Shown one piece after another: positions 27,489 through 51,259 of a DNA stretch of 64,000 bases. Within the stretch, counting starts at the first letter, position 1; each line of letters starts with the position of its first letter. This DNA comes from Acidimicrobiales bacterium (lineage in GTDB: Bacteria > Actinomycetota > Acidimicrobiia > Acidimicrobiales > CADCSY01): assembly GCA_030446545.1 (NCBI GenBank), contig JAUJNB010000002.1:62001-126000 (forward strand). Reading direction: 5' to 3'. A program made the translations under genes and the position numbers. The notes beneath the pieces are model-generated. The model was not told the origin of the DNA, searched no databases, and worked only from the letters and a program-made list of their open reading frames with translations.

Positions 27489-27498
27489 CGGGCCACGG

Positions 27499-28635
27499 TC
27501 ATGCCGAGCGCACGGGGATGCGGGCCTGGGCCGCCGCCTCCCGGGTGAAGCGCCCGTAGTTGTAGTAGGCCGCACACGCACCCTCAGAGGAGACCATGCA
27601 CGTACCGATGGGTGTCTCCGGGGTGCAGGCGGTGCCGAAGACCTTGCACTCCCAGGGCTTGATGACGCCCTTGAGGACCTCCCCGCACTGGCACGCCTTG
27701 GGGTCGGCCACCCGGATGCCCGGCACCGAGTAGCGCAGCTCGGCATCCCAGTCGGCGAAGGCCGGGCTCAACTTGAGCCCGGAGTGGGAGATGAAGCCCA
27801 GGCCCCGCCACTCGAAGTGGGGACGCAGTTCGAACACCTCGGCCAGGACCTCCAGGGCCCGGACGTTGCCTTCGTCGCGGACCGCCCGGGTGTACTGGTT
27901 CTCCACCTCGCAGCGCCCGTCACGCAGCTGGCGCAGCAGCATGACGATGCCCTGGAGGATGTCGAGAGGCTCGAAGCCCGAGGTCACCAGGGGCTTGCCG
28001 TACTGGGCCGGGACGAAGCGGTAGGGGCGGTTGCCGATCACGGTGCTGACGTGTCCGGGGCCGATGAAGCCGTCGAGGCGAAGGTCGGGCGACTCGAGGA
28101 TGGCCTTGAGGGGCGGGACGATGGTGACGTGGTTGGAGAACACGCTGAAGTTGGTCACCCCTGCGGCCCGGGCCTTGATCAGGGTGACGGCGGTGGAGGG
28201 GGCCGTGGTCTCGAAACCGATGGCGAAGAACACCACCTGTCGCTCGGGGTTGGCCATGGCGATGCGAAGGGCGTCGAGGGGGGAGTAGACCATGCGCACG
28301 TCGGCGCCCCGGGACTTGGCTTCGAGCAGGTTGCCGTTGCTGCCGGGCACCCGCATCATGTCGCCGAAGCTGGTGAAGATGACCCCCGGCTCCTCGGCCA
28401 GGGCGATGGCGTCGTCGACCCGTCCCATGGGGATGACGCACACCGGACAGCCGGGACCGTGCACCAGCTCGATGTTGGCCGGCAGGACGTTCTCGATGCC
28501 GTGCTTGTAGATGGTGTGGGTGTGACCGCCGCACACCTCCATGAACTTGCGGTGCTCGCCGGCCGAGATCGCGGTGATCTCCTCGACCGCCCGCCGGGCG
28601 GCGGCCGGGTCCCGGTACTCGTCGACGAACTTCAT
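27499..28635 (-). CDS. hypD: HypD, Fe(CN)2CO assembly scaffold
   Basis: A 378-residue HypD starting at the ATG at 28635, which overlaps the stop of the upstream SIS gene (ATGA). Key motifs are 'FMEVCGGHTHTIYKHGI', 'LVHGPGCPVCVIP', 'VFFAIGFETTAPSTAV', 'GFIGPGHVSTVIG' and the C-terminal [4Fe-4S] cysteines in 'ACQCGEVLKGVIKPWECKVF' plus 'GTACTPETPIGTCMVSSEG'. Together with HypC it holds the iron while HypE delivers cyanide. Length and all Cys motifs are normal. Confidence 0.97.
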   Translation of the reverse strand: MKFVDEYRDPAAARRAVEEITAISAGEHRKFMEVCGGHTHTIYKHGIENVLPANIELVHGPGCPVCVIPMGRVDDAIALAEEPGVIFTSFGDMMRVPGSNGNLLEAKSRGADVRMVYSPLDALRIAMANPERQVVFFAIGFETTAPSTAVTLIKARAAGVTNFSVFSNHVTIVPPLKAILESPDLRLDGFIGPGHVSTVIGNRPYRFVPAQYGKPLVTSGFEPLDILQGIVMLLRQLRDGRCEVENQYTRAVRDEGNVRALEVLAEVFELRPHFEWRGLGFISHSGLKLSPAFADWDAELRYSVPGIRVADPKACQCGEVLKGVIKPWECKVFGTACTPETPIGTCMVSSEGACAAYYNYGRFTREAAAQARIPVRSA

Positions 28636-29378
28636 TCGGCCCCCTTGTGGCTGAGCTGGTCGTGGCTGGCGTCTTCGTGGCTGGCGTCTTCGTGGCTGGC
28701 GTCTTCGTGGCTGGCATCGTGGTGGTCGACGACGTCGTTTCGGTAGGCCGCCTGCACCCCGGCCCACAGGGCGTGGGCCACGGCGGCCTGGGTCTCTTGG
28801 ATGCGGTGCACGCTGTCGGAGCGCACCACCAGGCAGTGCTCGAGCGCCGGGCACTCGGCCATGCGCCCACCGTCGTAGCCCGAGAGGCCAACGGTGCGCA
28901 TGCCCTGTTTGGCGGCCTGGGTGAAGGCCCGCAGCAGGTTCTCGGAGTTGCCGCTCGTGGACAGACCGAGAGCGATGTCGCCGGGGCGGCCGTGGGCCTC
29001 GAGCTGGCGGGAGAAGACCACGTCGAAGCCGACGTCGTTCGAGAGGGCCGACAACACGGCGTGGTCGGTCACCAGTGACCGGGCCGGCAGCGGGTTCCCC
29101 AGGGAGGACTGGTGAAGAGCTGGGCCACGTCGTCGGCGTCGGTGGCGCTGCCGCCGTTGCCAAAGGCGAAGAGCTGGCCCCCGCCTCGAAGCACCGAGCC
29201 AGAACCGCTGACACCTTGCGGATCTGGGCGTCGAGGAGCTCGAGGGTGGCCACCCGCAGGCGACTGCTCTGCTCCCACTTGGCCCCGGCCGAGCTGGCCA
29301 GGTCGACCAGCAGGGTGGAGGCGTCGTGCTCGTCCCCTCGATGAAGGGGTAGAGGAAGTCGGTGGTCTCCGGGCTCAC
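28632..29378 (-). CDS. SIS-domain protein (phosphoheptose isomerase-like) with His-rich repeat tail, frameshifted
   Basis: After correcting three one-base losses in G/C runs (near 29097-29100, 29178-29182 and 29334-29337), a protein of about 249 residues reads from a GTG at 29378: 'SPETTDFLYPFIEGDEHDAS', then the SIS core 'LFAFGNGGSATDADDVAQLF', 'SNDVGFDVVFSRQLEAHGR', 'IALGLSTSGNSENLLRAF' and 'DSVHRIQETQAAVAHALWAG'. The fold is that of GmhA-type sedoheptulose-7-phosphate isomerases, but such genes recur in actinobacterial hydrogenase clusters with unknown role. The C-terminus is D-A-S-H-E repeats with seven His, a plausible Ni-binding tail. It overlaps hypD by ATGA. Confidence 0.75.
   Translation of the reverse strand: MSPETTDFLYPFIEGTSTTPPPCWSTWPARPGPSGSRAVACGWPPSSSSTPRSARCQRFWLGASRRGPALRLWQRRQRHRRRRRGPALHQSSLGNPLPARSLVTDHAVLSALSNDVGFDVVFSRQLEAHGRPGDIALGLSTSGNSENLLRAFTQAAKQGMRTVGLSGYDGGRMAECPALEHCLVVRSDSVHRIQETQAAVAHALWAGVQAAYRNDVVDHHDASHEDASHEDASHEDASHDQLSHKGAE
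28662..28721 (-). repeat. 15-base tandem repeat encoding DASHE units
   Basis: GTGGCTGGCGTCTTC occurs three times in a row at 28662, 28677 and 28692, followed by a partly matching unit to 28721. On the minus strand each unit encodes E-D-A-S-H. The identical codons indicate recent slippage. Confidence 0.9.
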
Positions 29379-30114
29379 CGGGGGCCCCCTCGAGGGAGAT
29401 GATGGCCGAGCCGGCATGGACCAGGACCAGGTCACCGGGGCTGGGCCGGTCGATGAGGCTGGTGTCGATGTGCTCCCGGCCCTCGGCCGTGCGTACCAGG
29501 GCGTCACCCAGGTCGTCCACGCTGACCACCTCGGCCGTGCGGCCCTCGTCGGAGCAGGTGATGCACACCTCTTCGTCGCAGGTGTCGGGGCGCAACAGCC
29601 CGGTGTGCTCGAAGCACACGTGGGTGAGCTCCCACAACAGGTGGTACATGCGCACGAAGAGCTCGGACGCCGCCAAGGGGTCGTCGGTGTCGAGCCACAG
29701 CACGTGGTCGGCGGCGCCGTCGACCGGACGGGGACCGGCCCCCATCCACACCGTCTCGACGCCCCAGGCCGGCCCCCGACGCATGGCGTCGCTCACGTCG
29801 GCCTCACCGGCGCCGGCCACCGCCACCACCATGTCGCCGGGGCGAACCGTGGCCCGCAGGGTGGCGACCAGGTCGGCGCCGGCGGGCACCACCACGGCGG
29901 GCAGGGCCCGCTTGCCCATGATCACGGGATGGACGAACTCCACCGCCACGTGGTGGGCGTGGAACACCGACGAGGGCGAGATGCACCAGAGCGTGCCTCC
30001 GGCGGCGAAGCGCCGAGCCAGGGCCAGTGAGGCCCGGGCCAGGTCGTCGCAAAGGCCGACGTCGGCCGACGCCCCGAGGTCGCCACCGACGGGCGCGAGG
30101 TCGGGACGTGTCAT
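29375..30114 (-). CDS. SIS-like domain fused to a HypC/HupF-type domain
   Basis: About 246 residues from the ATG at 30114. The first 170 residues resemble a SIS fold ('CDDLARASLALARRFAAGG', 'VRPGDMVVAVAGAGEADV'). The last 75 are HypC-like: 'CDEEVCITCSDEGRTAEVV' and 'RPSPGDLVLVHAGSAIISLE' match the OB-type HypC core but without the N-terminal Met-Cys of a classical HypC. Without correction the frame reads past its stop; one extra base in the G5C5 run at 29380-29389 gives a TGA overlapping the next gene's GTG (GTGA). It starts 2 bases after hypC and may be a second Fe-ligand chaperone or sensor. Confidence 0.75.
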
Positions 30115-30116
30115 GG

Positions 30117-30398
30117 TCACAGCGGTGTGCTCTCCCGGAACTGGTCGATCTCCTCGTCGTAGATGCTGCCCAGGTCCTTGATGAACGACAGCGTGCTGGC
30201 CGCTTCCTCCTCGTCGATCTTGGCCATGGCGAAGCCGACGTGGATGAGGACCCACTCGCCCACGGAGATGCCACCCTCGGCCTCGCTCATCACCAGGCCG
30301 ATGTTGATCTCCCGGCGGACGCCGTCGACCTCGGCCACTGCCCGATGCTCGGCGAGGTCGAGGATCTCCACGACCTGGCCAGGGATTCCGAGACACAT
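30117..30398 (-). CDS. hypC: HypC hydrogenase maturation chaperone
   Basis: A 93-residue classical HypC: the N-terminus is 'MCLGIPGQVVEI', where Cys2 binds the iron, then 'REINIGLVMSEAEGGISVGE' and 'WVLIHVGFAMAKIDEEEA', the conserved C-terminal helix. It carries the Fe(CN)2CO unit from HypD to the hydrogenase large subunit. It is close-packed between the CooC-like ATPase (5-base gap) and the SIS-HypC fusion (2-base gap). Confidence 0.96.
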   Translation of the reverse strand: MCLGIPGQVVEILDLAEHRAVAEVDGVRREINIGLVMSEAEGGISVGEWVLIHVGFAMAKIDEEEAASTLSFIKDLGSIYDEEIDQFRESTPL

Positions 30399-30403
30399 GT
30401 TGG

Positions 30404-31204
30404 TCAGCCTCCTTGTGCCGCAGGTGCGGCGACGGTGTGTGCGTGGGCCGCCTCGCGGATGGTTCCGGCGAAGCGGGAGATGGCGGTGACGGCGGGCCCG
30501 TCGGGGTGGGCGTCGAGCAGGGGGATGCCGGCCAGGTCGGCCTGTACCACCTCGTCGCTCCACGGCACCTCACCCAGCTGCTCGAGGCCGTGGCGCTCGC
30601 AGAACTCGGCGACGGCCCTGCCCCCGGTGACGTCGCGGACCTTGTTGGCCAGGACGCCCACCCGGGGGATGGGCAGCTCGTCGGCCAAGCGGGCGATGCG
30701 TCGCACCGCCTCCAGCGAGCGGTAGTAGGGCTCGGTGACGAGGACGAGCAGGTCGGCGTGGCGGGTGGTGCCCCGGCTCATGTGCTCGGGCGACGCCTCC
30801 ATGTCGATCAGGGTGATGGTGTCGGGCTGCCCCCCGAGGTCGCCCATCAAGGCGCTGACGGTGGCATGGGCCGAGCACAGGCACCCCTCGGAGGAGTGAC
30901 CGGGCTCACCCATGAGCACGAGGCGCACGCCGTCGGGACCGGCGATGCCGTGGTGGTCCACGACCTCGGCCACCGGGGCGGTCAGCGACGGTCCGCCGAC
31001 CAGCCGGCGCGACACCAGCGAGGTGGGCAGGTACGGGGCGGCGGCGCTGGCTTGGCGGTCGATCCCGAGAGCCAGGGCCAAGTTGGGGTTGCTGTCGCCG
31101 TCGATGGCGACCACGGGGAACCCGCCTCGAGCCAGCACGCGACACAACGTGGCGCTGATGGTGGTCTTGCCCGCCCCTCCCTTGCCGGCCAGGGCGACCC
31201 TCAT
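30404..31204 (-). CDS. CooC/MinD-like ATPase of the hydrogenase accessory operon
   Basis: A 266-residue deviant-Walker P-loop ATPase: 'MRVALAGKGGAGKTTISATL' at the N-terminus, switch I 'VVAIDGDSNPNLALALG' and the CxC-type metal motif 'SSEGCLCSAHATVSALMG' near residue 108, then 'LIDMEASPEHMSRGTTRHAD'. CooC proteins insert Ni into CO dehydrogenase; no CODH is in the window, and HypB is missing from the cluster, so this ATPase may serve Ni delivery to the hydrogenase (inference). Its ATG overlaps the PadR stop (ATGA). Confidence 0.88.
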   Translation of the reverse strand: MRVALAGKGGAGKTTISATLCRVLARGGFPVVAIDGDSNPNLALALGIDRQASAAAPYLPTSLVSRRLVGGPSLTAPVAEVVDHHGIAGPDGVRLVLMGEPGHSSEGCLCSAHATVSALMGDLGGQPDTITLIDMEASPEHMSRGTTRHADLLVLVTEPYYRSLEAVRRIARLADELPIPRVGVLANKVRDVTGGRAVAEFCERHGLEQLGEVPWSDEVVQADLAGIPLLDAHPDGPAVTAISRFAGTIREAAHAHTVAAPAAQGG

Positions 31205-31587
31205 CGGCTCGCCACCGACGCAGGGGAGACCTCGGCCGGCGCCACCACGTCGTAGCGGTCGAGCATGGCGCCGAGCATCCGGTGGACCTCGCGCATGGCC
31301 TCCAGCGACTCGACGAGGGCTTGGCGGCCCTCGTCGGACAGCATGTAGCTACGCCGGGCCGGGCCCGCCTGGGAGGGTTCCCACCACGAGCTCACCCATC
31401 CGGCTTGCTCCATGGCGCGCAGCGTCCGGTAGAGCCCGCCGGCGTCGGCGTTGCGAACGCCGGCCTGGCGGACCTGCTCCAGGAGCTCGTAGCCGTGAGA
31501 CGGCCCCTCGGCCAGGAGCAGCAGCAGGCAGGGTCGGACGTAGGAGCGTGAGAGCCCCTCGCCCTCGGGACGGATCACAGGAGCCAT
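31201..31587 (-). CDS. PadR-family transcriptional regulator
   Basis: A 128-residue PadR winged helix: 'YVRPCLLLLLAEGPSHGYEL', 'QVRQAGVRNADAGGLYRTLR', 'MEQAGWVSSWWEPS' and 'RRSYMLSDEGRQALVESLEA', followed by the short dimerising helix. PadR proteins repress by binding ATGT/ACAT-type inverted repeats and are relieved by a ligand. The ATG at 31587 overlaps the preceding regulator's stop (ATGA). Two TGTAG-N-CTACA palindromes in the divergent region are its likely sites, giving control of both hydrogenase operons. Confidence 0.9.
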   Translation of the reverse strand: MAPVIRPEGEGLSRSYVRPCLLLLLAEGPSHGYELLEQVRQAGVRNADAGGLYRTLRAMEQAGWVSSWWEPSQAGPARRSYMLSDEGRQALVESLEAMREVHRMLGAMLDRYDVVAPAEVSPASVASR

Positions 31588-31970
31588 CAGTGCTCGTGCC
31601 CCGCCCGTTCGGCGACGCACGCCGAGGCCTCCTCGGCGGAGCTGTGGCACCAGCAGTCGGCGCTGCACTCGCCGTGGGTGGGCCGGGTCAGGTCGCTGAA
31701 GGAGGCGGCGAACTCGGTGGCCCCTTCCTCACGCCCACGATCCGACAGCGAGTAGATGTCACCGTCGCGCACCAGATAGCCCTCCGTCACCAGAAGGTCC
31801 AGGTAGCTGACGCCGATGTTGGCATCGACCCCGAGGAACTGCTCGATCATGGGAGCGTCGACGAAGTCCCCGAAGCCTTCACCTTGCAGCCAGAACATGA
31901 CCTGCAGGATCTCGCTCCGCCAGTAGAGCGCCCGCAGCGCATCTGATTTGGGAGAGTGAAGATCGTCCAT
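31587..31970 (-). CDS. Predicted winged-helix regulator with Cys/His-rich C-terminus
   Basis: A 127-residue protein from the ATG at 31970, with a strong AGGAGGGG ribosome site. The body is helical with a wing-like strand pair ('EILQVMFWLQGEGFGDF', 'SYLDLLVTEGYLV', 'YSLSDRGREEGATEF'), a PadR/MarR-style arrangement. The tail has four Cys and three His (GECSADCWCHSS, then CVAERAGHEH), which could bind Ni, Zn or an Fe-S cluster. It is first in the leftward operon, next to the operator region, so a metal- or redox-sensing co-regulator is a reasonable guess. Confidence 0.75.
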   Translation of the reverse strand: MDDLHSPKSDALRALYWRSEILQVMFWLQGEGFGDFVDAPMIEQFLGVDANIGVSYLDLLVTEGYLVRDGDIYSLSDRGREEGATEFAASFSDLTRPTHGECSADCWCHSSAEEASACVAERAGHEH

Positions 31971-32033
31971 GAGCCCCTCCTGAGGTCGCGGCCGAAACGT
32001 CCGGCATCCGGCGGATAGCTGAACGCCCGGTGG

Positions 32034-32046
32034 ATGTAGACTACAC
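32034..32046. promoter_or_regulatory. Putative PadR operator 1 (TGTAG-A-CTACA)
   Basis: ATGTAGACTACAC contains an 11-base perfect palindrome with a single central base, 65 bases upstream of the regulator start at 31970. It matches operator 2 at every arm position and has the ATGT...ACA form favoured by PadR proteins. Confidence 0.65.
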
Positions 32047-32178
32047 CCACCTCCCCGGCGCGACACGGGAAACTCCTTCGGGTCCAAGCCCGGGGAAGGA
32101 GGCGGTGGGGAAGGCGCAGGGAGCCGGGCAGGTGAGGTGAAGTCCGTGAAAACTTCTCCTGACGGCGCTCCCGATTAG

Positions 32179-32191
32179 ATGTAGCCTACAT
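32179..32191. promoter_or_regulatory. Putative PadR operator 2 (ATGTAG-C-CTACAT)
   Basis: A 13-base perfect palindrome with one central base, 88 bases upstream of the hydrogenase small-subunit GTG. Its centre is 145 bases from that of operator 1. Overlap with the likely rightward -10 region suggests repression. Confidence 0.7.
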
Positions 32192-32278
32192 ATACCAGGC
32201 CCGAGGGGGCGCAGTTTCCGGCGATGCACACGCTCGCTGGGAAGCGTCGAGCACCTCGGCTAGCTACGGGAGGAAAGC

Positions 32279-33652
32279 GTGAGCGAAGGCAGAGGGCAAA
32301 GGACCCGCAGGGAGCCGCTCAGGGCCTCGGGCGGCGCAGGCAACGAGGGGCACTCCGGTGCCGGGCCGGTGGCCCGGCAGGCGGGGAACAAGCCCATGGA
32401 CTCCGAGATGGGAGCGTGGAAGACCGAGCTGAACCCCGGGCTGGGGACGGTCGACCTCATCGACGGGTATGACCCGTTCGACCCGTTCTCCCCCATCGGC
32501 ATCCGCAGCCGGGTGCTCGAAGAGCCGGACGACGTCTTGCAGATCGGCCCGCTGAAGAAGATCTACCTCATCTGGATGGTCGGTGGATCGTGCGACGGCT
32601 GCAGCGTGGCGGTGACCGGTGGGACCCACCCCCGGGTGGAGCACCTGCTGGCCGGCATCATCCCCGGCCTGCCGCGGGTGGAACTGGTCCACACGGTGGT
32701 CTCCACCGAGTCCGGTCCCGAGTGGGTGCACAACCTGTTCATGGCCGAGCGCGGCGAGCTCGACGCTCCCTACGTCATCACGTGGGAGGGCTCGATCATG
32801 GACGAGTCGGTTGCCGCCGCCACCGGCGGGTACTGGATGGGCCTGGGTGACGACCCCCAGACCGGGCGCCAGATCAGCAGCCTCGAGTGGCTCGACCGCC
32901 TCGCCCCCGGCGCTGCCGCCATCATCGCCATCGGCACCTGCGCCACCTGGGGCGGCATCCCCGCCGCCAAGGGCAACGTGACCAACTCCATGGGCATGAT
33001 GGACTACCTGGGCAAGGACTACCGCTCTGCCTTTGGCGTCCCGGTGGTCAACATCCCCGGCTGCGCCCCCATCGGCGACAACTACCTCGAGACGGCGGCG
33101 GCCACGCTGCTGTTCCTCAACGGCCTCGGCCCGCTCCCCGAGTTCGACGAGATCGGCCGCCCGGCCTGGCTGTTCGGCGAGACGGTCCACCGTCACTGCC
33201 CCCGGGGCGGCTACTACGAAGAGGGCGTGTTCGCCGAGGAGTACGGCGACAAGGAGTGCCTGGTCGAGCTGGGGTGCTGGGGCCCGGTGGTGCAGTGCAA
33301 CATCGTGGAGCGCGGCCAGGTCGACGGCCACGGCGGCTGCATGAACATGGGAGGCATCTGCATCGGCTGCACCATGCCTGGATTCCCCGACAAGTTCTCG
33401 CCCATCTACCAGACGTCGCCGGGGTCGTTCCTGTCCAGCAACACCAGCCGGGTGGCGGGCGGCTTCATCCGCCGCACCCGCAACATGACCCGGGCCGACA
33501 AGAACATGACGACCCGTTGGGACAAGGAAGGCGCGCCCGCCGGATGGGCTCGGGCCAAGACCCCGCCCAAGGGCGCCCTCAAGCAGTTGCACAAGTTCTA
33601 CGGGAAGTACCAGCACTCCGACCGCCTGCACGCCAGTTCCTACACCAAGTAA
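32279..33652 (+). CDS. hhyS: Actinobacterial-type (group 1h) [NiFe] hydrogenase small subunit
   Basis: A 457-residue electron-transfer subunit starting at a GTG with AGGA upstream. Fe-S ligands are visible in 'MVGGSCDGCSVAVTGG', 'IAIGTCATWGGIPAAKGNV', 'VVNIPGCAPIGDNYLE', 'LFGETVHRHCPRGGYYEEG', 'ELGCWGPVVQCNIVERG' and 'GGCMNMGGICIGCTMPGF'. There is no Tat signal peptide and no C-terminal membrane helix, as known for the soluble or loosely attached group 1h (old group 5) enzymes, which oxidise atmospheric H2 to feed the respiratory chain during carbon starvation. The family is known for an Asp ligand at the proximal cluster. The first 60 residues are a variable extension. Confidence 0.95.
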   Translation: MSEGRGQRTRREPLRASGGAGNEGHSGAGPVARQAGNKPMDSEMGAWKTELNPGLGTVDLIDGYDPFDPFSPIGIRSRVLEEPDDVLQIGPLKKIYLIWMVGGSCDGCSVAVTGGTHPRVEHLLAGIIPGLPRVELVHTVVSTESGPEWVHNLFMAERGELDAPYVITWEGSIMDESVAAATGGYWMGLGDDPQTGRQISSLEWLDRLAPGAAAIIAIGTCATWGGIPAAKGNVTNSMGMMDYLGKDYRSAFGVPVVNIPGCAPIGDNYLETAAATLLFLNGLGPLPEFDEIGRPAWLFGETVHRHCPRGGYYEEGVFAEEYGDKECLVELGCWGPVVQCNIVERGQVDGHGGCMNMGGICIGCTMPGFPDKFSPIYQTSPGSFLSSNTSRVAGGFIRRTRNMTRADKNMTTRWDKEGAPAGWARAKTPPKGALKQLHKFYGKYQHSDRLHASSYTK

Positions 33653-33670
33653 GCCGGGAGACGAATCTCT

Positions 33671-35548
33671 ATGTGTTTCAAGAACCTGCCCATCGAGTTC
33701 GACGCCAACGGCAAGGCCAGCCTGCGGGATGGCGTCGGAGACCCCTACGGGTACAAGCCCACCCCCTCCAAGGGCTACGTCCGCAAGCAGGACGGGCCCG
33801 GGGCGCAGCTGGCGGCGCCCCCGAAGCTGCGCGACTGGAGCATCGACCCGGTAACCCGGGTGGCCGGTGCCCTGGCCGTGCACACCACCCTCGACCTGGA
33901 GAACCGCAAGGCCGTGGACGCCTACTCCCGGGCCATGCTCTTCCGGGGCTACGAGATCATCCTCCAGGGCCGTGACCCCGCGACGCCATCGACATCAGCT
34001 CGCGGGCCTGTGGGGTGTGCGGTGGCGTGCACGCCACGGTCGCCTCGCTCAACATCGAGATGGCCTTCGGCGCGTGCCCGCCCCCTTGGGCGTGGCTTGT
34101 CGCAACCTGGGTGAGATCGGGGAGATGTTCTACGACCACCCCATCCACCTCGGCCTGCTGAGCGGCCCCGACTACTCCACCTCGCTCGTGTCGGTGACCA
34201 ACCCCGAGCTGGTGCGCAAGGCCGAGAAGACCCCGGCGCCCGGCTACGAGGTGCACGGCTTCCGCACCATCAAGGACATCATGGACGCCATGAACCCCTT
34301 GACGGGCAAGATCTACCTCGAGTCGATCGAGTACACCCGCATCGGGCGCGTGATGTGCATGCTCATGTACGGCAAGTACCCGCACCCGTCCACGCTGGTG
34401 CCCGGTGGCCTGTCCACCACCATCTCCACCTCGTCGTTCAACGAGTTCTACACCCAGCTGGGCAAGATCTTCGACTACTGCAAGGTCATGATCGCCACCT
34501 GGGACGACATGATGGACTTCTTCCTCGAGTCCAACCCGGCCTACGAGCAGGTGGGCGCTCGTCCCACCAACCTCATCCAGACCGGGATCTGGGAGGACAC
34601 CGAGGCTTACGACGCCACCTACGCCAACGTCAACATGTGGGGGAACCGTCGCTGGGCCAAGCCGGGCATGATCATCGAGGGCAAGCTGGTCACCACCAAC
34701 CTCACCGACATCAACATGGGCTACGAGGAGTTCGTCGACCACTCCTTCTACGACGACTGGACCAAGTCGGGGTCCCAGCGCTACGCCACCGACCCCTTGG
34801 GCAACCCCTCTCGCCGTACCACCCGTGGAACAAGGAGACCATTCCCCGCCCCTCGGGCACCAACTTCAAGGAGAAGTACACCTGGGACACGGCGCCCCGG
34901 TGGGACCGCAAGACGGTGGAGACCGGCACCTACGGGCGCATGTGGACCACCGCCTTGGCCGCCCAGACGCCGGAGAACCCCTTCCTCGAAGCCACGGGCG
35001 ACGGCCTGCGCATGGTGCTTTCCCGCCACAACCTGCCCGAGACCGAAGTCTTCTGGAAGGTCCCCCGCACCCTCAACGCCCTCGAGCGCAACCGGGCCCG
35101 GGCCTACGCCATGGGCTTCACCGCCACGGTCGGCATGAACTGCCTGCTCAAGGCCTTCGAGTACTGGCGGCGGGGCGAGACCAAGGTCTCGACTCCCTAC
35201 AAGGTGCCCAAGGACCACCGCCTGTCGGTGGGCTTCTGGGAGGCGGGCCGGGGCTTCCTGGTCCACCACATGGAGATCGACAAGGGCAAGATCCTCAACT
35301 ACCAGATCACCACGCCCTCCACGGTCAACGCCGCACCTCGTGACCCCTTCGGTGGTCTCGGCCCCTACGAAGAGGCGGTCATCGATACTCCCATCCTCGA
35401 GTCGGTCTCCGACGACGAGGTCAAGGGCATCGACATCCTCCGGGCCATCCGCAGCTTCGACCCGTGCATGCCCTGCACCACCCACATGGACACGGGCAAG
35501 GGCACCATCGTGCGGGAGGTCAACTCCTGCGGCTGCACGCTGGAGTGA
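33671..35548 (+). CDS. hhyL: Group 1h [NiFe] hydrogenase large (catalytic) subunit, three frameshifts as given
   Basis: A continuous protein of about 626 residues emerges if one C is restored in each of three C runs (33976-33979, 34081-34085, 34805-34808). The L1 motif is 'SSRACGVCGGVHA' and the L2 motif 'SFDPCMPCTTH', so all four Ni-Fe Cys ligands are present. A C-terminal peptide of about 20 residues (MDTGKGTIVREVNSCGCTLE) follows the His and would be removed by the maturation protease. Start is the ATG at 33671 (MCFKNLPIEFDANG), 18 bases after the small subunit. The stop overlaps the next gene's GTG. Coding quality is otherwise perfect, so the frameshifts are probably sequence errors. Confidence 0.93.
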
Positions 35549-36096
35549 GCTCGGAAGATCTCGTACCAGGGGAGCGCCGGGCCGCCCGTGTGCTCGTCGG
35601 TGGCATCGGCCTCCCCTGGATGCGGGATCTGGATTTCGGGACGCAGTTCGTCCGTAGGATGGAGGTCCTCGACTGGCCCGATGACGTGCTGGTCGAGGAC
35701 CTTTCCTATGCGGCCCATCGGGTGCTGCACCTCCTCCAGGAGGTGCGGCCGGCCAAGGTGGTCCTGGTCGGGGCCATGCCCCGATTCACCGACGAGGCCG
35801 GCACCGTCCGGCGCTACCCGTTGGATCTCACCCCTCCCTCGGACGAGGACGTCCAGTCGAGGTTGGGTGACGCCGCTGGGGGAACCATCGACCTCGATCA
35901 CACCCTGGCGGTGGGTCGGTACTGGAAGGCCTTCCCCGAGGATACGGTGGTCATCGAGGTCGAGCCGGCCGACCGCTCGTTCGGCCTCGGATTCACCGAC
36001 TCGGTCGAGGCGGCCATGGAGCCCGTCCTGGCCATGGTGCGAGAAGAGGTGGGTATGGACAGCATCGAGATCGAGGCGCCGGTGAGGGGCCAGTGA
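35545..36096 (+). CDS. Hydrogenase maturation protease-like (M52-type fold) protein
   Basis: A 183-residue protein from the GTG at 35545 (GTGA overlap with the large subunit). 'VLVGGIGLPWMRDLDFGTQF' resembles the GxGN(xx)DDG motif of HyaD/HupD proteases, but Asn is replaced by Leu and only one of the two Asp is kept, so the Ni-sensing/cleavage site looks altered. The rest ('VLHLLQEVRPAKVVLVGAM', 'PEDTVVIEVEPADRSFGLGF') follows the fold. Since a canonical protease is encoded at 37404, this one is more likely a paralogue acting as chaperone or carrier. Confidence 0.75.
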   Translation: MSSEDLVPGERRAARVLVGGIGLPWMRDLDFGTQFVRRMEVLDWPDDVLVEDLSYAAHRVLHLLQEVRPAKVVLVGAMPRFTDEAGTVRRYPLDLTPPSDEDVQSRLGDAAGGTIDLDHTLAVGRYWKAFPEDTVVIEVEPADRSFGLGFTDSVEAAMEPVLAMVREEVGMDSIEIEAPVRGQ

Positions 36097-36707
36097 GCGA
36101 CGGCACCGGATACGGGGACAGCGAGCTGGAAAGCTTCGCCGCCATCTGGGGCGAGGTGGCGGCGGTGGCCGACGACTTGTTGTCCCACCCCGACCCCACC
36201 GTGGTGACCCAGGTGGAGGAGCTCCTCGACTGGGTCGACGTGTTCCACCGGGACGGCCTGGGTCGCCTCGTCGAGATGGTGCGGAGTTGGCGGGGAGAGC
36301 TGTTCCTCAACAGCGTGGCCCAGGACGAGGTGGCCGGGACGATGCTGGCCGCCTACGGGCTGGGCGAGGGCCCGGCCCTCGAGGCTGAGGCGGCCGAAGC
36401 AGTCGAGGCGGCCCTGGCCGAGGTCCGCCCGCTGGTGGAGTCCCACGGCGGAGCCCTCGAGGTCGACCACGTCAAGGACGGCGTGGTGGCGGTACGCATG
36501 CTCGGGACGTGCGACGGGTGCCCCAGCTCGTCGGCCACCCTCACCTACGGCGTGGAAGCGGCGCTGCGCAACCATTGGCCCAACTTCCGCCGCTTGGAGC
36601 TGCTGGACCCCCCGGCCGAGGTCGATCCCGAGAAGGCCGCCCTCGAGTGTGTCACCGCGCCCGCCCCGGCCAGCGTCCCGGTGGAGCTCCACTCCCCGGG
36701 CTCATGA
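36093..36707 (+). CDS. NifU C-terminal domain (Fe-S scaffold) protein with helical N-terminal domain
   Basis: A 204-residue protein. The last 80 residues are a NifU/Nfu scaffold domain: 'RPLVESHGGALEVDHVKDG' and 'VRMLGTCDGCPSSSATLTYG' with the CxxC that holds a transient [4Fe-4S]. The first 100 residues are an acidic helical domain of unknown role. Placement in the hydrogenase operon suggests delivery of Fe-S clusters to the small subunit. It overlaps both neighbours by GTGA and ATGA, indicating coupled translation. Confidence 0.88.
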   Translation: MSDGTGYGDSELESFAAIWGEVAAVADDLLSHPDPTVVTQVEELLDWVDVFHRDGLGRLVEMVRSWRGELFLNSVAQDEVAGTMLAAYGLGEGPALEAEAAEAVEAALAEVRPLVESHGGALEVDHVKDGVVAVRMLGTCDGCPSSSATLTYGVEAALRNHWPNFRRLELLDPPAEVDPEKAALECVTAPAPASVPVELHSPGS

Positions 36708-37204
36708 GCCTCGATCCCGAGGAGCTCACCTACCGGGCCCGGGCTCTGGCCCAGACCCATCCACTGACGCCCCTGGCCGGCCGATACATCGAGCGGGCCG
36801 TGGGGGAGCAGCGAGCGTCCCAGGCCATCCCCGAGATCGGTATCTGGGCCGGAGGGTCGCTCATCGACGGGTACTGCCTGCGTCGGGTGGAGGAGGACGA
36901 CGTCGGTCTCACCCTGGGCGCGGTCGCCGGCGACGTGCCCGACCTCGACGTCCTGGAGGCCGAGGCGTCGAGGATCGCGGCCGAAGTCCGGACGGGGGCG
37001 GGCGACTACCTCCTCGGCGACGACGTGCGCACGGTGGCGGCGCTCGACCGCCTGGTGCACTCCCAGGTCGACCGGCGCCTGGAGCACTGGCGCGACTCGG
37101 TCGACGACAAGGCGTGGGCCGAGCTCGAGGAGTACCTCACGTGGTGGGTGGTCAAGGGCTATGCCCTGCGGGTGGCGGAGACCTCGATGGGCGCGGTGGC
37201 GTGA
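36704..37204 (+). CDS. Uncharacterised hydrogenase-operon protein
   Basis: A 166-residue acidic soluble protein with no signal peptide or membrane helix. Features seen: 'GIWAGGSLIDGYCLRRVEED', a stretch of Asp/Glu-rich beta/helix sequence and a C-terminal 'WAELEEYLTWWVVKGYALRV'. No catalytic motif is recognised. The ATGA overlap with the NifU-like gene ties it to the operon, and its role is presumably in hydrogenase assembly or attachment. Confidence 0.75.
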   Translation: MSLDPEELTYRARALAQTHPLTPLAGRYIERAVGEQRASQAIPEIGIWAGGSLIDGYCLRRVEEDDVGLTLGAVAGDVPDLDVLEAEASRIAAEVRTGAGDYLLGDDVRTVAALDRLVHSQVDRRLEHWRDSVDDKAWAELEEYLTWWVVKGYALRVAETSMGAVA

Positions 37205-37403
37205 CCCCCTCATCCGAACGGGTCCTGTCACCGAGCGGGACCCCTCCCAAAGGTCCTCGCTGCGCTGCGGCCCTTGGGCCCCTCCCCTCGGCGCCACCCG
37301 TTCTCCCGTGCTCCCCTTGCCCTCCACACGTTCGGTTGGTGGGGGAAAATGCTGGGGGCGCCCTTCGGGCGGCTCATCCCCACTTGCGGGCGGCTCATTG
37401 CTG
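37205..37403. other. 199-base gap in the hydrogenase operon with hairpin and direct repeat
   Basis: The only sizeable break in the otherwise overlapping operon. It holds a CGCCC-TTC-GGGCG hairpin at 37359-37371 and a 12-base direct repeat CGGGCGGCTCAT at 37366-37377 and 37387-37398. No reading frame stands out. It may carry a secondary promoter or an inserted repetitive element. Confidence 0.55.
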
Positions 37404-37919
37404 ATGCGAATTTTGATCGCTGGGGTGGGGAACATCTTGCGGGCTGACGATGCCTTTGGCGTGGAGGTGGCCCGGCGGTTGGAGGGTATGGAGCTGCCTG
37501 CGGGGGTGAAGGTGGTGGAGACGGGGATCGCCGGGATCGCCCTGCTCACCGAGATCCAGGAGGGGTGGGATGCGTTGGTCGTGGTCGATGCCGTCGACCA
37601 TCAACGACCGCATGGCACCGTCATGCTCATCGAGCCCGAGATCGTCGACGTGCACGAGCTGACCTTCGCCCAGAAAGGTGACCTGTTGGCCGACATGCAC
37701 CTGGCCACTCCCGACCGGGTGCTCATGCTGGCCAAGGCCCTCAACGTGCTTCCTCCCGAAGTGCTGATGGTGGGATGTCAGATCCTCGACCCGGACGCAG
37801 TGGGCGAGCAGATGACGGCGCCGGTGGCCGCCGCCGTCGACGTGGCCGTCGCCGAGGTGCTGCGTTACGTGAGCGACCTCGTTGGCCCCTCCGGGCCGGT
37901 CGACGTACAGTCCGCCTGA
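37404..37919 (+). CDS. [NiFe] hydrogenase maturation endopeptidase (HyaD/HycI family)
   Basis: A 171-residue M52 protease: 'RILIAGVGNILRADDAFGVE' contains the canonical GxGN and first Asp; 'VVVVDAVDHQRPHGTVMLI' supplies the second acidic residue and 'TFAQKGDLLADMHLATPDRV' a histidine region. It senses Ni in the large subunit and removes its C-terminal peptide. The ATG at 37404 is preceded by the 199-base gap. The TPR gene follows after 3 bases. Confidence 0.92.
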   Translation: MRILIAGVGNILRADDAFGVEVARRLEGMELPAGVKVVETGIAGIALLTEIQEGWDALVVVDAVDHQRPHGTVMLIEPEIVDVHELTFAQKGDLLADMHLATPDRVLMLAKALNVLPPEVLMVGCQILDPDAVGEQMTAPVAAAVDVAVAEVLRYVSDLVGPSGPVDVQSA

Positions 37920-37922
37920 CCC

Positions 37923-39284
37923 ATGGCCACCCCAGCCGAGAACCCTCAGACCGGCGCCGGGCTCGACCGCCAGCGGGTGATCACCGACCTGGCCGCCCAG
38001 CTGGCCCGCACCCCCCGGGCCACTCGTCCCCACGAGCACGGCGCCCTGGCCTATCGCCTGGGCCTGGCCTACGCCGAGGCGCCGGGCGGCAGCCCGGAAG
38101 CGGGCATGCGCAAGGCGTTGACCTACTTCGACGCCGCCGCCGCCCTGTTCGATCCTCGTTTCGATCCCATCGAGCACGCCCGGGTGCTCAACGGGGCGGG
38201 CGCGGCCCGGCGGGCGCTGGGGGAGCGGGAGCGGGCCGTCGAGCTCTTCGAGCGGGCCGCCGGCCTGCTCGAAGGCCAGGGCCGCGACGACGAGCGGGCC
38301 GGGGTACTCAACAACTTGGGCCTGGCCCGCAGCGAGCTCGGTCGCCTGGGGGAGGCGGTGGTGGCCTGCGACGAGGCGGCCCAGCTGTTCGACACCGACT
38401 CGGCCGAAGGTCGGCGGGGGCGCATCGCCGCCCTGCACACCAGGGGTTCGGCCCGGGCCGCCCTCGGCACCGACGAGAGCCTGGAGGCAGCCCTGGCCGA
38501 CTTCCGTCAGGCCGCCGACGAGCTCGATCCCGAAGAGGCGCCTTACCACCACGGCCTGGTGCAGCACAGCCTCGGGGTGACCTACAGCGGCCTGGCCACG
38601 CGCCGACCCGAGGAGCGGTCGCGCCTGTTGCAGGAGGCCATCGCCGCCTTCGAGGAGTCGCTGACGGTGTTCACCCGCCAGGCCTTCCCCTTCCAACATG
38701 CCCTGGTCAAGCACAACCTGGGTCTGGCCTGGTCGGGTCGGGGCGGTCTGACCCATCAGCGTCGGGCTCTGGCGTCCTTCGAGGACGCGGTGTCCATGTT
38801 CGACCCCCGCATGCACGCCGACGCCTGGCGCCAGTCCTATGCCAGCCTGGAGCGCACCGAGAAGGAGCTGGAGTCCCTGGCAGCGGGCATGACCCGGACC
38901 GAGCACTTCGTCGCCCTGCTGACCGCCGTCGGTGCCGAGGAGCGGCATGGCCTCCTGCAGGGCCGCCTCACCGCGCTGCTCGCCCTGCCTGCGAACCGGC
39001 GGAGATCGAGCCTGACCGAGTTGGCGGTGGCCTCGGCCAAGCTGGAGTTCGAGGAGGCTCGCGTCGTCATGGAGGCCGAGATGGAGATCCTCATCGAGTT
39101 GCCCACCGAGTTGCTCGAACCGGGGTTGCGGGCCCGCTTCGACGCCAACCGGCGCCTCGAGAGCGAGGAGGCCCGTTTCTCGGCCGATCGAGCCCTCGAC
39201 CAGGCGATCGGCGATGCGTTGCAGGGCCCGCAGCGCATCTCGGTACGTGACTACTTCTACTCGCTGGGCTGGGAACGGCCGTGA
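37923..39284 (+). CDS. Tetratricopeptide-repeat protein of the hydrogenase operon
   Basis: A 453-residue soluble helical protein. Several degenerate TPR units are visible between about 40 and 310, for example 'ARVLNGAGAARRALGERERA', 'AGVLNNLGLARSELGRLGEA', 'HGLVQHSLGVTYSGLATRRP' and 'HALVKHNLGLAWSGRGGLT'. It is probably a protein-protein scaffold. Genes of this type accompany group 1h hydrogenases and may organise the multi-subunit assembly. No enzymatic motif is seen. Confidence 0.82.
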   Translation: MATPAENPQTGAGLDRQRVITDLAAQLARTPRATRPHEHGALAYRLGLAYAEAPGGSPEAGMRKALTYFDAAAALFDPRFDPIEHARVLNGAGAARRALGERERAVELFERAAGLLEGQGRDDERAGVLNNLGLARSELGRLGEAVVACDEAAQLFDTDSAEGRRGRIAALHTRGSARAALGTDESLEAALADFRQAADELDPEEAPYHHGLVQHSLGVTYSGLATRRPEERSRLLQEAIAAFEESLTVFTRQAFPFQHALVKHNLGLAWSGRGGLTHQRRALASFEDAVSMFDPRMHADAWRQSYASLERTEKELESLAAGMTRTEHFVALLTAVGAEERHGLLQGRLTALLALPANRRRSSLTELAVASAKLEFEEARVVMEAEMEILIELPTELLEPGLRARFDANRRLESEEARFSADRALDQAIGDALQGPQRISVRDYFYSLGWERP

Positions 39285-39727
39285 GCGACCCAACGGCGCC
39301 GCCGCCCCAGGACGTGGCCAAGGCCTTTGTGGATGCCGTGGCTTGGGGGGAGCACCACACCGTCTGGGAGCTCCTGTCGAGCGAGGGTCGCACGGTGGTG
39401 TTGCGCCTGGGGGCCACGCGGGGGATGGACCAGGCCCTGGCGGCCCGCCTGCGGGACGGCACCGCGGCCACGGCCGAGCGCGAGGAGTTCCTCACCGACC
39501 TGGTCAGCGGCCTGCGGGCCGACCTGGCCGGCAACGATCTCGACACGCTCGAGGCCGAACTGCAGGACGATCCCGGGGGCAACGCTTCGGGCAGCGCCCG
39601 GGTGATCCTGGTGTCGCCGTTGCCCGAGGTCCTGGCCCTCCCCGGGCTGCCCTTCGCCTCGGTGGAGTTGACCGAGGAGTCCGACGGATGGCGGATCGAC
39701 CGTCTGATCCCCCGCACGAGCAAATGA
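39281..39727 (+). CDS. Uncharacterised small hydrogenase-operon protein
   Basis: A 148-residue soluble acidic protein starting at a GTG that overlaps the TPR gene stop (GTGA). The layout resembles an NTF2/lumazine-binding-type cone ('VAKAFVDAVAWGEHHTVWEL' at the start and 'ASVELTEESDGWRIDRLIP' at the end), but the middle is not diagnostic. No catalytic residues can be named. It overlaps the biotin-ligase-like gene by ATGA. Confidence 0.7.
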   Translation: MSDPTAPPPQDVAKAFVDAVAWGEHHTVWELLSSEGRTVVLRLGATRGMDQALAARLRDGTAATAEREEFLTDLVSGLRADLAGNDLDTLEAELQDDPGGNASGSARVILVSPLPEVLALPGLPFASVELTEESDGWRIDRLIPRTSK

Positions 39728-40473
39728 GTGGCATCGGTGGCGGGCCCCCGGAGACCGTCGAGCGCTACGGGCGCCCGATACGCCACTTCCCGGTGGCCGT
39801 GTCGGCCGGGGCCATGGCCGGCGCCTGGGCCCGCCAGGAGGGTGCCCCCGCCGGGGCCGCCGTGGTCGTCGACCAGGAGATCAGCGCCCTCGGCCGCATC
39901 GGGCGGACGTGGGACACCCCGGCGGCGTCGACGCTCACGCTGGCCATGGTGTTGCGCCCGTCGGTGGCCCCCGAGCAGGCCGACGTGTCGTGGCTGGTGG
40001 CGGGCCTGGGGCTGCTCCGGGGCATCGAGGCCCTGGTCAGCGACCGGGAGTTGGCCACCTGGTGGCCCGACGACGTGGTCGAGGTGGCCAGCCGGGAGGT
40101 GGTGGCCACCACCAAGGTGGACATCCAGCTCGGACCGGGCGAGGTGCGGGCGGCCGTGGCCACCATGCGGGTCGACCTGGCTCGCCTCGGGCTGGAGGAG
40201 CCGCAGGCGCGGGAATCACTGCTCGAAGCCTTGGTCAACGCGGTCGACGACGTGGCCCACACCCTGGCCGACGGACCGGAGGCGGCGGCGGCGGCCTACG
40301 AGCGGCGTTGCTTCCTGGTCGACCGGCGGGTGAAGTTGCGCCTGATGCCCAAAGGTGAGACCCGCGGGACGGTGCGGGCCTTCGACCGCGGCGGACGCCT
40401 GGAGCTGGCCTCGGCGACAGGAATGATCGAGCGCATCACGGTGGACATGTTGCGCTCGCTCGAGGCGGTGTGA
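39724..40473 (+). CDS. Biotin/lipoate-ligase-fold protein with altered catalytic motifs
   Basis: A 249-residue protein whose first 200 residues align by eye with BirA-type ligases: 'WARQEGAPAGAAVVVDQEIS' then 'GRIGRTWDTPAASTLTLAMV', 'LVAGLGLLRGIEAL' and 'WWPDDVVEVASREVV'. The family's GRGRxGR loop has become ALGRIGR and the KWPND(V) motif has become WWPDD, losing the usual Lys, so classical biotinyl-AMP chemistry is doubtful. A C-terminal SH3-like part is present ('GTVRAFDRGGRLELAS'). It probably has a structural or ligand-binding role in hydrogenase assembly. Confidence 0.7.
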   Translation: MSGIGGGPPETVERYGRPIRHFPVAVSAGAMAGAWARQEGAPAGAAVVVDQEISALGRIGRTWDTPAASTLTLAMVLRPSVAPEQADVSWLVAGLGLLRGIEALVSDRELATWWPDDVVEVASREVVATTKVDIQLGPGEVRAAVATMRVDLARLGLEEPQARESLLEALVNAVDDVAHTLADGPEAAAAAYERRCFLVDRRVKLRLMPKGETRGTVRAFDRGGRLELASATGMIERITVDMLRSLEAV

Positions 40474-40898
40474 GCATGGACGAAGGCTTCGCCTCGCCCT
40501 TCGCCCAGCCCACCGGGCCCGCCGTGGACGATGGCGCCGTCCTGACCAGCTTCGCCCGCGACCAGGCTGCCGGGCACTCCACCCGCTTCCACGTCGAGCG
40601 ACCGACCCTCCTGGTGGGACGGAACGTGGCCGCGGCGGTGCGCATCGGTCCCCGGACCGTGTTGGTGCGGGCCGACCTGCCCGACCCTCTGGCGGGGGCC
40701 AAGGCGGAGGTGGAGGAGGCGTTGGCCGGCGAAGGCCTGACCTGCTTCGACGAGGACACCCTGTTGGCCACCCCTGTCGCTCTCCAGCTCTTCGGCCTCC
40801 GCCTGTCGAGCTGGGATCTCTGGGGCGACGACATCGACGTCGCCTTCGCCGTGCTGCGCTCCGGGTGTGTGGCCGACCAGGCCGGTCCCTTCGGGTAA
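40470..40898 (+). CDS. Uncharacterised last gene of the hydrogenase operon
   Basis: A 142-residue soluble protein from a GTG overlapping the preceding stop (GTGA). It contains 'VGRNVAAAVRIGPRTVLVRA' and 'LAGEGLTCFDEDTLLATPV', of no recognised family. Two Cys residues are far apart. Strict coupling to the operon is the main clue. It ends 541 bases before the convergent metalloprotease. Confidence 0.68.
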   Translation: MSMDEGFASPFAQPTGPAVDDGAVLTSFARDQAAGHSTRFHVERPTLLVGRNVAAAVRIGPRTVLVRADLPDPLAGAKAEVEEALAGEGLTCFDEDTLLATPVALQLFGLRLSSWDLWGDDIDVAFAVLRSGCVADQAGPFG

Positions 40899-49291: not shown

Positions 49292-49735
49292 TCACGTCGA
49301 CGCCCGTGCTCCGGTCGCCTCGGGAGGCGGGGTGCGATGGGCCCAGGTCCAGGCGCCGCCCAACGCCAGCACGGCCAGGCCGGGCAGGCTGTGATAGACC
49401 GTGGCGCCCCAGGGCGCCTGTTCCCGGCTGGCCTGGAGGACGAGCGGGAGGTGGGTGGCGCTCATCCAGAACCCGGCCAGCACGATGCCCAGCCCGGCAG
49501 GGAACAGCAGACCACCGGCACGACCGCCCCGGGCCAGCAGGAACGACCCCAGCGAGATGGCCAGGACGACCATGCCGGGCACCACGTGGTCGACGATCTC
49601 CACGGTGTCGTCGGTGGCGAGGAAGGGCCCGGTGTAGGGCGGCAGCAACGCCCACCCCCCCACCAGCAGGCCCAGCCCGGCCAGCATGGGCAACGCGGTG
49701 CTGCGTTGGGCCGGAGGGACGGCCGGGGCCGTCAC
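49292..49735 (-). CDS. Four-helix integral membrane protein of unknown function
   Basis: A 147-residue hydrophobic protein from the GTG at 49735, 16 bases after the stop of the TGA-containing ATPase. Four membrane helices are visible ('LPMLAGLGLLVGGWALL', 'VPGMVVLAISLGSFLLARG', 'LLFPAGLGIVLAGFW', 'LPGLAVLALGGAWTWA'), with a conserved-looking 'ATDDTVEIVDHVVPG' loop. It is probably co-transcribed with the two ATPases and may be their membrane partner. Confidence 0.7.
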   Translation of the reverse strand: MTAPAVPPAQRSTALPMLAGLGLLVGGWALLPPYTGPFLATDDTVEIVDHVVPGMVVLAISLGSFLLARGGRAGGLLFPAGLGIVLAGFWMSATHLPLVLQASREQAPWGATVYHSLPGLAVLALGGAWTWAHRTPPPEATGARAST

Positions 49736-49751: not shown

Positions 49752-50489
49752 TCAGGAAGTGAACGCGACCAGATCGTCGGCCAGGCGGGCCAGGGCCAGT
49801 ACGGCGGGGGCGTCGGGTGCACTGTCGAGGGGAGCCACCCCATGGCGATCGGCGGCCACGATGGCCGGGTCGTCGGGGATGGGAACGACCTGGTGGTCGG
49901 GGAAGGCCTTGGTGATCATGACCAGGTCGTCTTCGTTGCGGATGCGGCTGGCCACGACCACGGCCCGGCCCAGCGACTTGTCGGCCACCAGGTCGGCGGC
50001 CCGGCATCCCACCTCGACCGACTTGGGGGTGGGTTCGACCACGATCAGCACCAGGTCGACCCCGGCGTCACCGAGGCGGGTGAGGGTCCCCACCCCCGCT
50101 TCGAGGTCGGCCACCACCATCTTGTTGCTGAAGTCCACGCTGCCGAGCAACTGCTCGGCGGAGAGGCCACATCAAAGGCAGCCTGGTTCGGGGTTGTCGA
50201 TCCGGCTCACCACCGCCAGGCGCACACCGTCGGGGGCATCCGAGCCGAAGCGGTCGAGCACTTGGTCCCACTCCGAGGCGTGCTCCTCCTCGCCCTCGTC
50301 GAGAGCTTGGCGCATGGAGACCAACCGCTCGGTCTCGTCGTCGCCCACCCCGAGGGAGATGCCCAGGTTGGGGTTGGAATCGCAGTCGAGGGCCACGACG
50401 TCGTGGCCCTGGCGGGCCAGGGTGCGGGCCAGGATGGCCGACGTGGTGGTCTTGCCCGAGCCCCCTTTGCCTGTCACTGCCAGCTTCAT
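49752..50489 (-). CDS. CooC/MinD-like ATPase with in-frame TGA (candidate selenoprotein)
   Basis: A 245-codon frame containing one TGA at codon 106. N-terminus 'MKLAVTGKGGSGKTTTSAIL' is a deviant Walker A and 'VVALDCDSNPNLGISLG' switch I. At the metal motif the sequence is E-P-G-C-L-[TGA]-C-G-L-S; related ATPases, as I recall them, have Cys there (CxCC). The frame continues without a break into 'SNKMVVADLEAGVGTLTRLG' and 'LVLIVVEPTPKSVEVGC'. From the base after the TGA there are 12 bases and then GCCGAGC-AGTT-GCTCGGC. Readings: selenocysteine (Cys replaced by Sec) or a point mutation/error. ATGA overlap with the upstream ATPase. Confidence 0.8.
50142..50159 (-). promoter_or_regulatory. Candidate bacterial SECIS hairpin
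   Basis: On the minus strand GCCGAGC (50159-50153), loop AGTT (50152-50149), GCTCGGC (50148-50142): seven perfect pairs with G as second loop base. The loop lies 20-23 bases after the TGA at 50174-50172, inside the 16-37 base window known for bacterial SECIS elements. It lies within coding sequence for S-A-E-Q-L-L-G, so chance cannot be excluded. Confidence 0.5.
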
Positions 50490-51259
50490 GTGGTGGCCCC
50501 CTTGAGCTGTTGGTGGTCGAGACGTTCCAACAACAAGGATACCGCTCCTACCGCGACAGAATCAGGGACGACATCGAGGGGCGCCCGACCGCTGCGCTCG
50601 GCGTCGGCAAAGGCGGGCTCGAGGGGGACCGAGGCGACCACCTCCAGGCCGCTACGGCGGGCGATGAGCTCCACGTCGCCCGGCTCGGTCACCTTGTTGG
50701 CCACGGCCAGCACTCGCACCGGGCGATCGGCGGACGAGGCCAGCCGGGCCAGGCGCCGGGCCGACAACAGGGACTTGGCCATGGGTTCGACCACCACCAG
50801 GTAGGTGTCGGCGTAGCCGCCCCAGCCGGTGAAGGCCTGGCGGGTCCCGCCCGGGAGGTCGCCCACCAGGTGCCAACGGTCCTCCGGCAGCTCGTGGATG
50901 ATCTGGCGGAAGGCGATCTGGGAGCGGAACAAGGCCCGGGGGTCGGTCCGGATCTTGCCGAACTGGAGGAAGCGCACCCCGTCGGGTGCGGTGGCGGCGT
51001 AGCGGTCGATGGCCTCGGCCGCGCTGAGCCCGGCCCGCAGTCGGTAGCGGGGCCCTTCTTCGTCCTCGGGCCGGTCTTCGATGGCCTCGTCGGGCAGGGG
51101 CGCGTCGTCCCGGTCGAGGCCGAGGGAGAAGGCCATCCCCGGCAGCGGGTCGGAGTCGATGGCCAGCACCGGCTGGCCCCGGCGGGCGAGGAGCCGGGCG
51201 AACGTGCCGGCGATGGCGGACTTGCCGGCGCCGCCCTTGCCGACGAACGCAACCCTCAT
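50486..51259 (-). CDS. CooC/ArsA-like P-loop ATPase
   Basis: A 257-residue ATPase: 'MRVAFVGKGGAGKSAIAGTF' (Walker A), 'VLAIDSDPLPGMAFSLG' and 'WHLVGDLPGGTRQAFTGWGG', then 'TYLVVVEPMAKSLLSARRLA' and 'VRVLAVANKVTEPGDVELIA'. It lacks the CxC metal motif of the other two ATPases in the window. With the following gene it forms an overlapping pair (ATGA), suggesting a heterodimeric ATPase. The target metalloprotein is unknown. Confidence 0.85.
   Translation of the reverse strand: MRVAFVGKGGAGKSAIAGTFARLLARRGQPVLAIDSDPLPGMAFSLGLDRDDAPLPDEAIEDRPEDEEGPRYRLRAGLSAAEAIDRYAATAPDGVRFLQFGKIRTDPRALFRSQIAFRQIIHELPEDRWHLVGDLPGGTRQAFTGWGGYADTYLVVVEPMAKSLLSARRLARLASSADRPVRVLAVANKVTEPGDVELIARRSGLEVVASVPLEPAFADAERSGRAPLDVVPDSVAVGAVSLLLERLDHQQLKGATT

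Follow-up and report, generated by a model that had tools for sequence, protein, structure and literature searches.

Among the described systems closest to the gene examined here, CooC1 of Carboxydothermus hydrogenoformans (PDB 3KJE/3KJI) is an ATPase of Ni-CODH maturation with a deviant Walker A motif (GKGGxGKTT) and a CxC motif whose two cysteines are metal ligands at the dimer interface. Part of PMC9164220 describes CooC and HypB, the nickel-insertion GTPase of [NiFe]-hydrogenases, as alike in architecture, with metal sites coupled to nucleotide, and places CobW (COG0523) among the G3E GTPases. An excerpt of PMC13188914 (May 2026) counts 119 prokaryotic selenoprotein families or subfamilies and names Sec as a nickel ligand of hydrogen metabolism in the [NiFeSe] hydrogenases. 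Table 1 of that paper, which includes families cited from Haft and colleagues (2023, 2025), contains no CooC- or MinD-like family among those listed, in agreement with the original prediction that no selenoprotein had been described in the CooC-like ATPase family; the entry nearest in kind is the CobW-related selenoprotein NF041053, likewise a P-loop NTPase of metal-chaperone type predicted to contain Sec. No CooC/MinD-type selenoprotein family is present in the portion of PMC9312934 considered here or in the main text of the deep-Sep paper (PMC12013277), where ATPase, MinD and CooC do not occur, and literature searches on selenoproteins, CooC and hydrogenase maturation gave no CooC-type selenoprotein paper among the matches listed.

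Analysis of a window of 64,000 nucleotides from an Acidimicrobiales genome gives strong genomic evidence that an ATPase of this kind (Table 1) is a genuine selenoprotein, a reading that we regard as almost certain. Its frame, which begins MKLAVTGKGGSGKTTTS, consists of 105 codons, an internal TGA and a further 139 residues before the terminal TGA; translation bears out the original description of an otherwise open frame with TGA at codon 106. The surrounding motif is PG-C(104)-L-[TGA 106]-C(107)-G, and comparison with a family motif of CxCC confirms that the TGA stands in place of the second Cys, a position at which orthologues have either TGA or Cys. The protein is similar to CooC1 over most of its length and has the CxC motif at the same place; it differs in the predicted replacement of one or both metal-binding Cys by Sec, and in an extra Cys that follows. 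Unlike NF041053, with its UxxC motif, the ATPase has the motif C/U-x-U-C and is of the MinD/CooC type; unlike the [NiFeSe] hydrogenases, in which Sec is found in the enzyme, here a putative maturation factor would carry it. Judged by the sources considered here, the ATPase appears to be a new selenoprotein family built on a known kind of protein.

Table 1. Positions of the predicted selenium ATPase gene, its recoding signals, its neighbours and related loci (window coordinates unless a locus is named)
Feature	Position	Strand	Remarks
Predicted Sec-containing CooC-like ATPase gene	49752..50489	-	246 codons including stop; Pfam CbiA/AAA_31; CooC1 3KJE profile match
UGA codon 106, proposed selenocysteine	50172..50174	-	Aligned with Cys114 of CooC1
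Codon 104	50178..50180	-	Cys in window gene, TGA in 31/47 orthologues; aligned with Cys112 of CooC1
Bacterial SECIS-like hairpin	50142..50159	-	GCCGAGC-AGTT-GCTCGGC; 7 bp, loop AGUU
Upstream overlapping CooC-like ATPase, possible partner subunit	50486..51259	-	No CxC motif
Downstream small membrane protein	49292..49687	-	No Pfam match; start from our own gene caller
[NiFe]-hydrogenase cluster	23731..40898		HypF, HypE, HypD, HypC, structural subunits, NifU-domain protein, HycI protease
Paralogous CooC-like ATPase beside hypC	30404..31204	-	Within hydrogenase cluster
Small-protein families beside CooC-like/hydrogenase genes	L126:9816-10064, L121:9103-9363, L098:10363-10626, L096:10873-11187		
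Separate CooC-like branch, G-U-T-G	L128 (G000 C21), L129, L130, L131, L133, L134, L137, L138, L139		
G-U-T-C paralogues	L132, L136		
P-G-U-G-G paralogue	L135		

The internal TGA is conserved. Among 59 genomes (the window's own and relatives), 14 contain a homologue of some kind (E 1e-10); an orthologue is present in 11, with one TGA in five, two in five and none in one. A scan of genome contigs (genome_contigs) with the peptide patterns VALDCD[ST]N and CCGLS[AP]EQ, the latter written with Cys, yielded 49 loci. Together with the window, and after removal of L124 and L125 (motif absent from the matched range, stops in the frame read) and of the paralogue L127, these give 47 comparable orthologues; treated separately are the orthologues L022, L076 and L140 (Sec) and L075 (Cys), and L069, L071, L072 and L073 are copies of L084, L116, L115 and L119. 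Codon 106 is TGA in 41 of the 47 and a Cys codon (TGC or TGT) in six, a ratio that is no unbiased census because two peptide patterns as probe limit the scan to close relatives; the alternation foreseen at this codon is thus present, and no other codon occurs. What the original prediction did not include is a second TGA, at codon 104: the motif classes are UxUC in 31 orthologues, CxUC in ten, CxCC in six and UxCC in none. TGA at codon 106 is shared by L018, L019 and L020, the closest orthologues found (85-93% identical).

The orthologues are actinobacterial, many of them from metagenome-assembled genomes of Acidimicrobiia, and include isolates of Pseudonocardia, Amycolatopsis and Haloechinothrix. 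Cultured carriers of the Sec form are Pseudonocardia kunmingensis and P. nigra (Pseudonocardia isolates have CxUC); those of the Cys form (CxCC) are Amycolatopsis marina and Haloechinothrix halophila. In a 72-row tree, with motif columns included and 37 of 69 inner branches well supported, the minimum number of changes is six at position 104 and two at position 106, so that TGA looks steadier at 106 than at 104. Five Cys forms from Pseudonocardiaceae and one Sec form (L090) make up a supported clade of six (100/98); the sixth Cys form (L083) is placed apart, at an open fork of the tree.

A hairpin is located just downstream of the TGA as originally described: it starts 12 bases past this codon, has seven perfect pairs, and presents an AGUU loop, whose second base is G as in the bacterial SECIS rule, at 20-23 bases from the TGA. 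The codons that form it (GAG-CAG-TTG-CTC) are invariant in all 41 Sec forms. Among genes called in the orthologue loci, 7.6% of Leu codons are TTG, yet this codon is fixed in the hairpin of Sec forms; the Leu codon three codons past the TGA varies (CTG 15, CTC 8, TTG 8, CTT 6, others). Over 37 distinct Sec sequences, 97.7% of stem cells are paired, against 22.8-51.4% in slid controls. The pair at the hairpin's base is not formed in six of the 37; among 13 doubly changed cells, nine turn G-C into C-G at that pair and four turn C-G into U-A at the third. The percentage paired, the number of doubly changed cells and the covariation score are reached by none of 500 shuffles, which ignore relatedness; the other two of the five covariation measures, the counts of doubly changed pairs and of pair types, are reached by 299 of the 500. 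In the six Cys forms, 69.0% of cells are paired (slid control up to 61.9%), and none of these six has the full set of four hairpin codons. By its synonymous conservation, outer-pair covariation and decay in the six Cys forms, the hairpin behaves as a SECIS element. The Sec forms outside the set of 47 (L022, L076 and L140) keep the four codons. The Cys form outside it (L075, C-P-C-C) also keeps them, with six of seven stem pairs, and the link between hairpin and Sec is therefore not strict; our guess is that L075 represents a recent change from Sec to Cys and that its hairpin is a remnant.

The search for Sec machinery in the same genome, assembled in 44 contigs and 71% complete, found every component that had been named for checking: selB above the family cut-off (264-280 bits), selA (388 bits) overlapping it on its upstream side, tRNA-Sec with anticodon tca (UCA; 60.2 bits, above the gathering score) and selD (L013 1501-2424; 371.6 bits). 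At the gathering threshold, Rfam models give no match in the selB locus, the tRNA-Sec gene being encoded elsewhere in the genome; ARAGORN finds no tRNA in the window. One in-frame TGA interrupts selD, which reads HGAG-U-ACKL, at what we take to be the usual active-site position, and the selD product of this genome also appears, from its sequence, to be a selenoprotein. In the class sample of 395 genomes, where carriers are the 11 genomes with the ATPase at E 1e-60, selB is present in 11 of 11 carriers versus 208 of 384 other genomes, although misses are possible in the class searches because few candidates were scored per genome. Across genomes with named Sec loci, selB is above cut-off in 35 of 40, the misses being L087, L094, L111, L123 and L095 (in the last at 236.1 bits, just below the cut-off of 242.25); among genomes with Cys loci it is above cut-off in five of six, the miss being L083. 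As a separator of Sec from Cys forms, selB accordingly fails.

Explanations that dispense with selenium fare poorly. A miscalled base, which the original prediction had already thought less natural at codon 106, is very unlikely, since the same TGA occurs in the three nearest orthologues and in 41 of the 47 comparable ones; recurrence in independent genomes led us to reject sequencing error. If the TGA were a true stop, the downstream part would be made by reinitiation, for which a TTG start is available at 50150, or the gene would be decaying, in keeping with frame breaks elsewhere in the window; this is very improbable, given that the stop is never TAA or TAG, that Cys takes its place in every orthologue without it, and that the hairpin is conserved at synonymous positions, and the codon pattern was our ground for rejecting reinitiation and decay. 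Decoding of the TGA as Trp or some other residue, or read-through without selenium, is exceedingly improbable: the open frame would accommodate it and nothing else favours it, whereas the alternate codon is Cys in six of six cases, the genes for selenium insertion are present with a tRNA-Sec(UCA), and the hairpin fits a SECIS.

The resemblance to CooC predicted at the outset is upheld by profile comparison: CooC1 (3KJE) is the best match among solved structures (E 2.6e-25, profile positions 1-217). Pfam places the protein in the CbiA/MinD superfamily (CbiA/AAA_31), PHROGs gives a ParA-like match only, and 22 NCBIfam families match, none above its own cut-off, including the MinD, ParA and NifH equivalogs. 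The deviant Walker A (GKGGSGKTTT, residues 7-16) accompanies a MinD-type fold. An AlphaFold2 model (32 sequences, Sec entered as Cys) has a mean pLDDT of 87.6, with the motif loop poorly modelled (below 50 at residues 99-102), and a fold search against the PDB ranks MinD (1hyq) first and CooC1 third. Residue 104 aligns with Cys112 and residue 106 with Cys114 of CooC1, and in all 47 orthologues these positions are Cys or, on the reading of TGA, Sec. By analogy with CooC1, each dimer would hold its metal with two or four selenolates, and homology suggests that the ATPase is probably a metal chaperone.

The reading that we favour in its entirety, and consider probable, is that UGA 106 is decoded as Sec in a CooC-type ATPase that acts as a putative chaperone of a soft metal, likely nickel, for the nearby [NiFe]-hydrogenase. 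SelA, SelB, SelD and tRNA-Sec would decode the UGA, steered by the downstream hairpin; two monomers, as in CooC1, would meet around one metal, to which each chain would offer residues 104 and 106, in a site that the alignment predicts to be S2Se2 in the window protein and Se4 in U-x-U-C relatives; with selenolate in place of thiolate the ligand set would be softer; the site would open and close as ATP is bound and hydrolysed, capturing and releasing a soft metal, most likely nickel; and co-occurrence and gene neighbourhood suggest that the nickel would be delivered for hydrogenase maturation. An alternative that we consider unlikely grants the selenoprotein and has the UxUC/CxUC loop bind an Fe-S cluster or form a redox pair, as in a NifH-like reductase, with no role in nickel delivery. 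It draws on the fold search, in which nitrogenase Fe proteins are matched as well as MinD and CooC, on the third Cys (107) after the CxC, and on the statement in the excerpt of PMC13188914 that most uncharacterized selenoproteins are likely redox proteins; both Sec positions, however, align with CooC1 metal ligands, and the CooC1 match spans profile positions 1-217, as against roughly the first 40-70 for the NifH matches listed.

Hydrogenase genes accompany the selenium ATPase. The window's [NiFe]-hydrogenase cluster is about 9 kb from the gene; the nearest solved relatives of the window small subunit and of the L090 large subunit are those of 5AA5. Genes of hyp or hydrogenase clusters occur in 28 of 46 loci (own gene calls and clusters), and no hydrogenase-cluster gene in the other 18, several of which are short contigs. 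PF00374 is present in 46 of 49 carrier genomes (the window's own and the 48 of L079-L126), and in the three misses (G457 = L106, G462 = L111, G473 = L122) the loci carry hyp-cluster genes. In the class sample, PF00374 is found in 11 of 11 carriers versus 27 of 384 others (Fisher p 1.5e-12, which overstates independence because the genomes are related). Directly upstream of the ATPase is a CooC-like gene in 42 of 46 loci; the cluster of the small membrane protein downstream is found in 12 of 46, as are at least three of five clusters of an oligopeptide/nickel-type ABC transporter, on which the nickel and the oligopeptide models of NCBIfam each score below cut-off. Nickel supply to the hydrogenase seems a moderately likely role. 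The window's genome has six other CooC-like matches, and the paralogue next to hypC could perform the nickel step instead.

Ni-CODH (TIGR01702) was found in none of the 49 carrier genomes; we therefore reject a link to that enzyme, a difference from CooC1, and file the protein as CooC-like rather than as CooC. It has a proposed role in common with HypB, but its sequence does not make it one: TIGR00073 is missing from its NCBIfam matches. HypB is above cut-off in seven of 49 carriers and not in the remaining 42; in the class control, it is above cut-off in one of 11 carriers and in six of 27 hydrogenase-positive non-carriers. Its absence is thus also common in hydrogenase-positive genomes without the ATPase, and since 21 of those 27 also have no HypB over cut-off, replacement of HypB receives no specific support.

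Further Sec motifs are predicted among paralogues. Thirteen stretches comprise nine with G-U-T-G (the window's own genome included), two with G-U-T-C, one with P-G-U-G-G and the orthologue L140, whose motif is D-U-P-U-C. In the G-U-T-G branch, TGA takes the first position of the CxC and Gly the second, and most of its members have a GTCACG/CGTGAC hairpin after the motif; by eye, the U of the paralogues falls on the first Cys of GCTCGGH-type paralogues. A short stem with a G-bearing loop is predicted in eight of nine G-U-T-G forms (not L134) and one of two G-U-T-C forms (not L136), L135 being irregular; these hairpins were judged from single-sequence folds, which leaves the paralogue motifs less well supported than the main family. 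We see about an even chance that a whole array of metal-chaperone ATPases with selenium ligands has arisen in Actinobacteria: an all-selenium dimer site of four selenolates in U-x-U-C forms, one SECIS recoding two UGAs two codons apart, and graded U-x-C/U-x-G/U-G-G paralogues in which one Sec replaces two Cys.

If our reading is correct, the listed selenoproteome gains a further protein family, with Sec at a place where metal is handed on and not where redox chemistry occurs, and in hydrogenase-bearing genomes, which often show no recognisable HypB, the ATPase becomes a candidate for the nickel step. Standard annotation would presumably truncate such ATPases at the TGA. The cultured Sec and Cys carriers make a direct comparison of the two forms possible.

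The neighbourhood has other features of note. The hydrogenase large subunit of the window (33671-35548) is split into several frames in the assembly; its homologue in L057 (2588-4492) is intact and has Cys ligands, unlike the [NiFeSe] enzymes, and the breaks look like indel errors and not Sec. Next to CooC-like and hydrogenase genes there are recurrent families of small proteins, probably membrane-bound, that match nothing in Pfam. The gene adjoining hypD (28632-29072) belongs to a cluster that recurs by hyp genes in several loci and whose members are presumably SIS-domain proteins.
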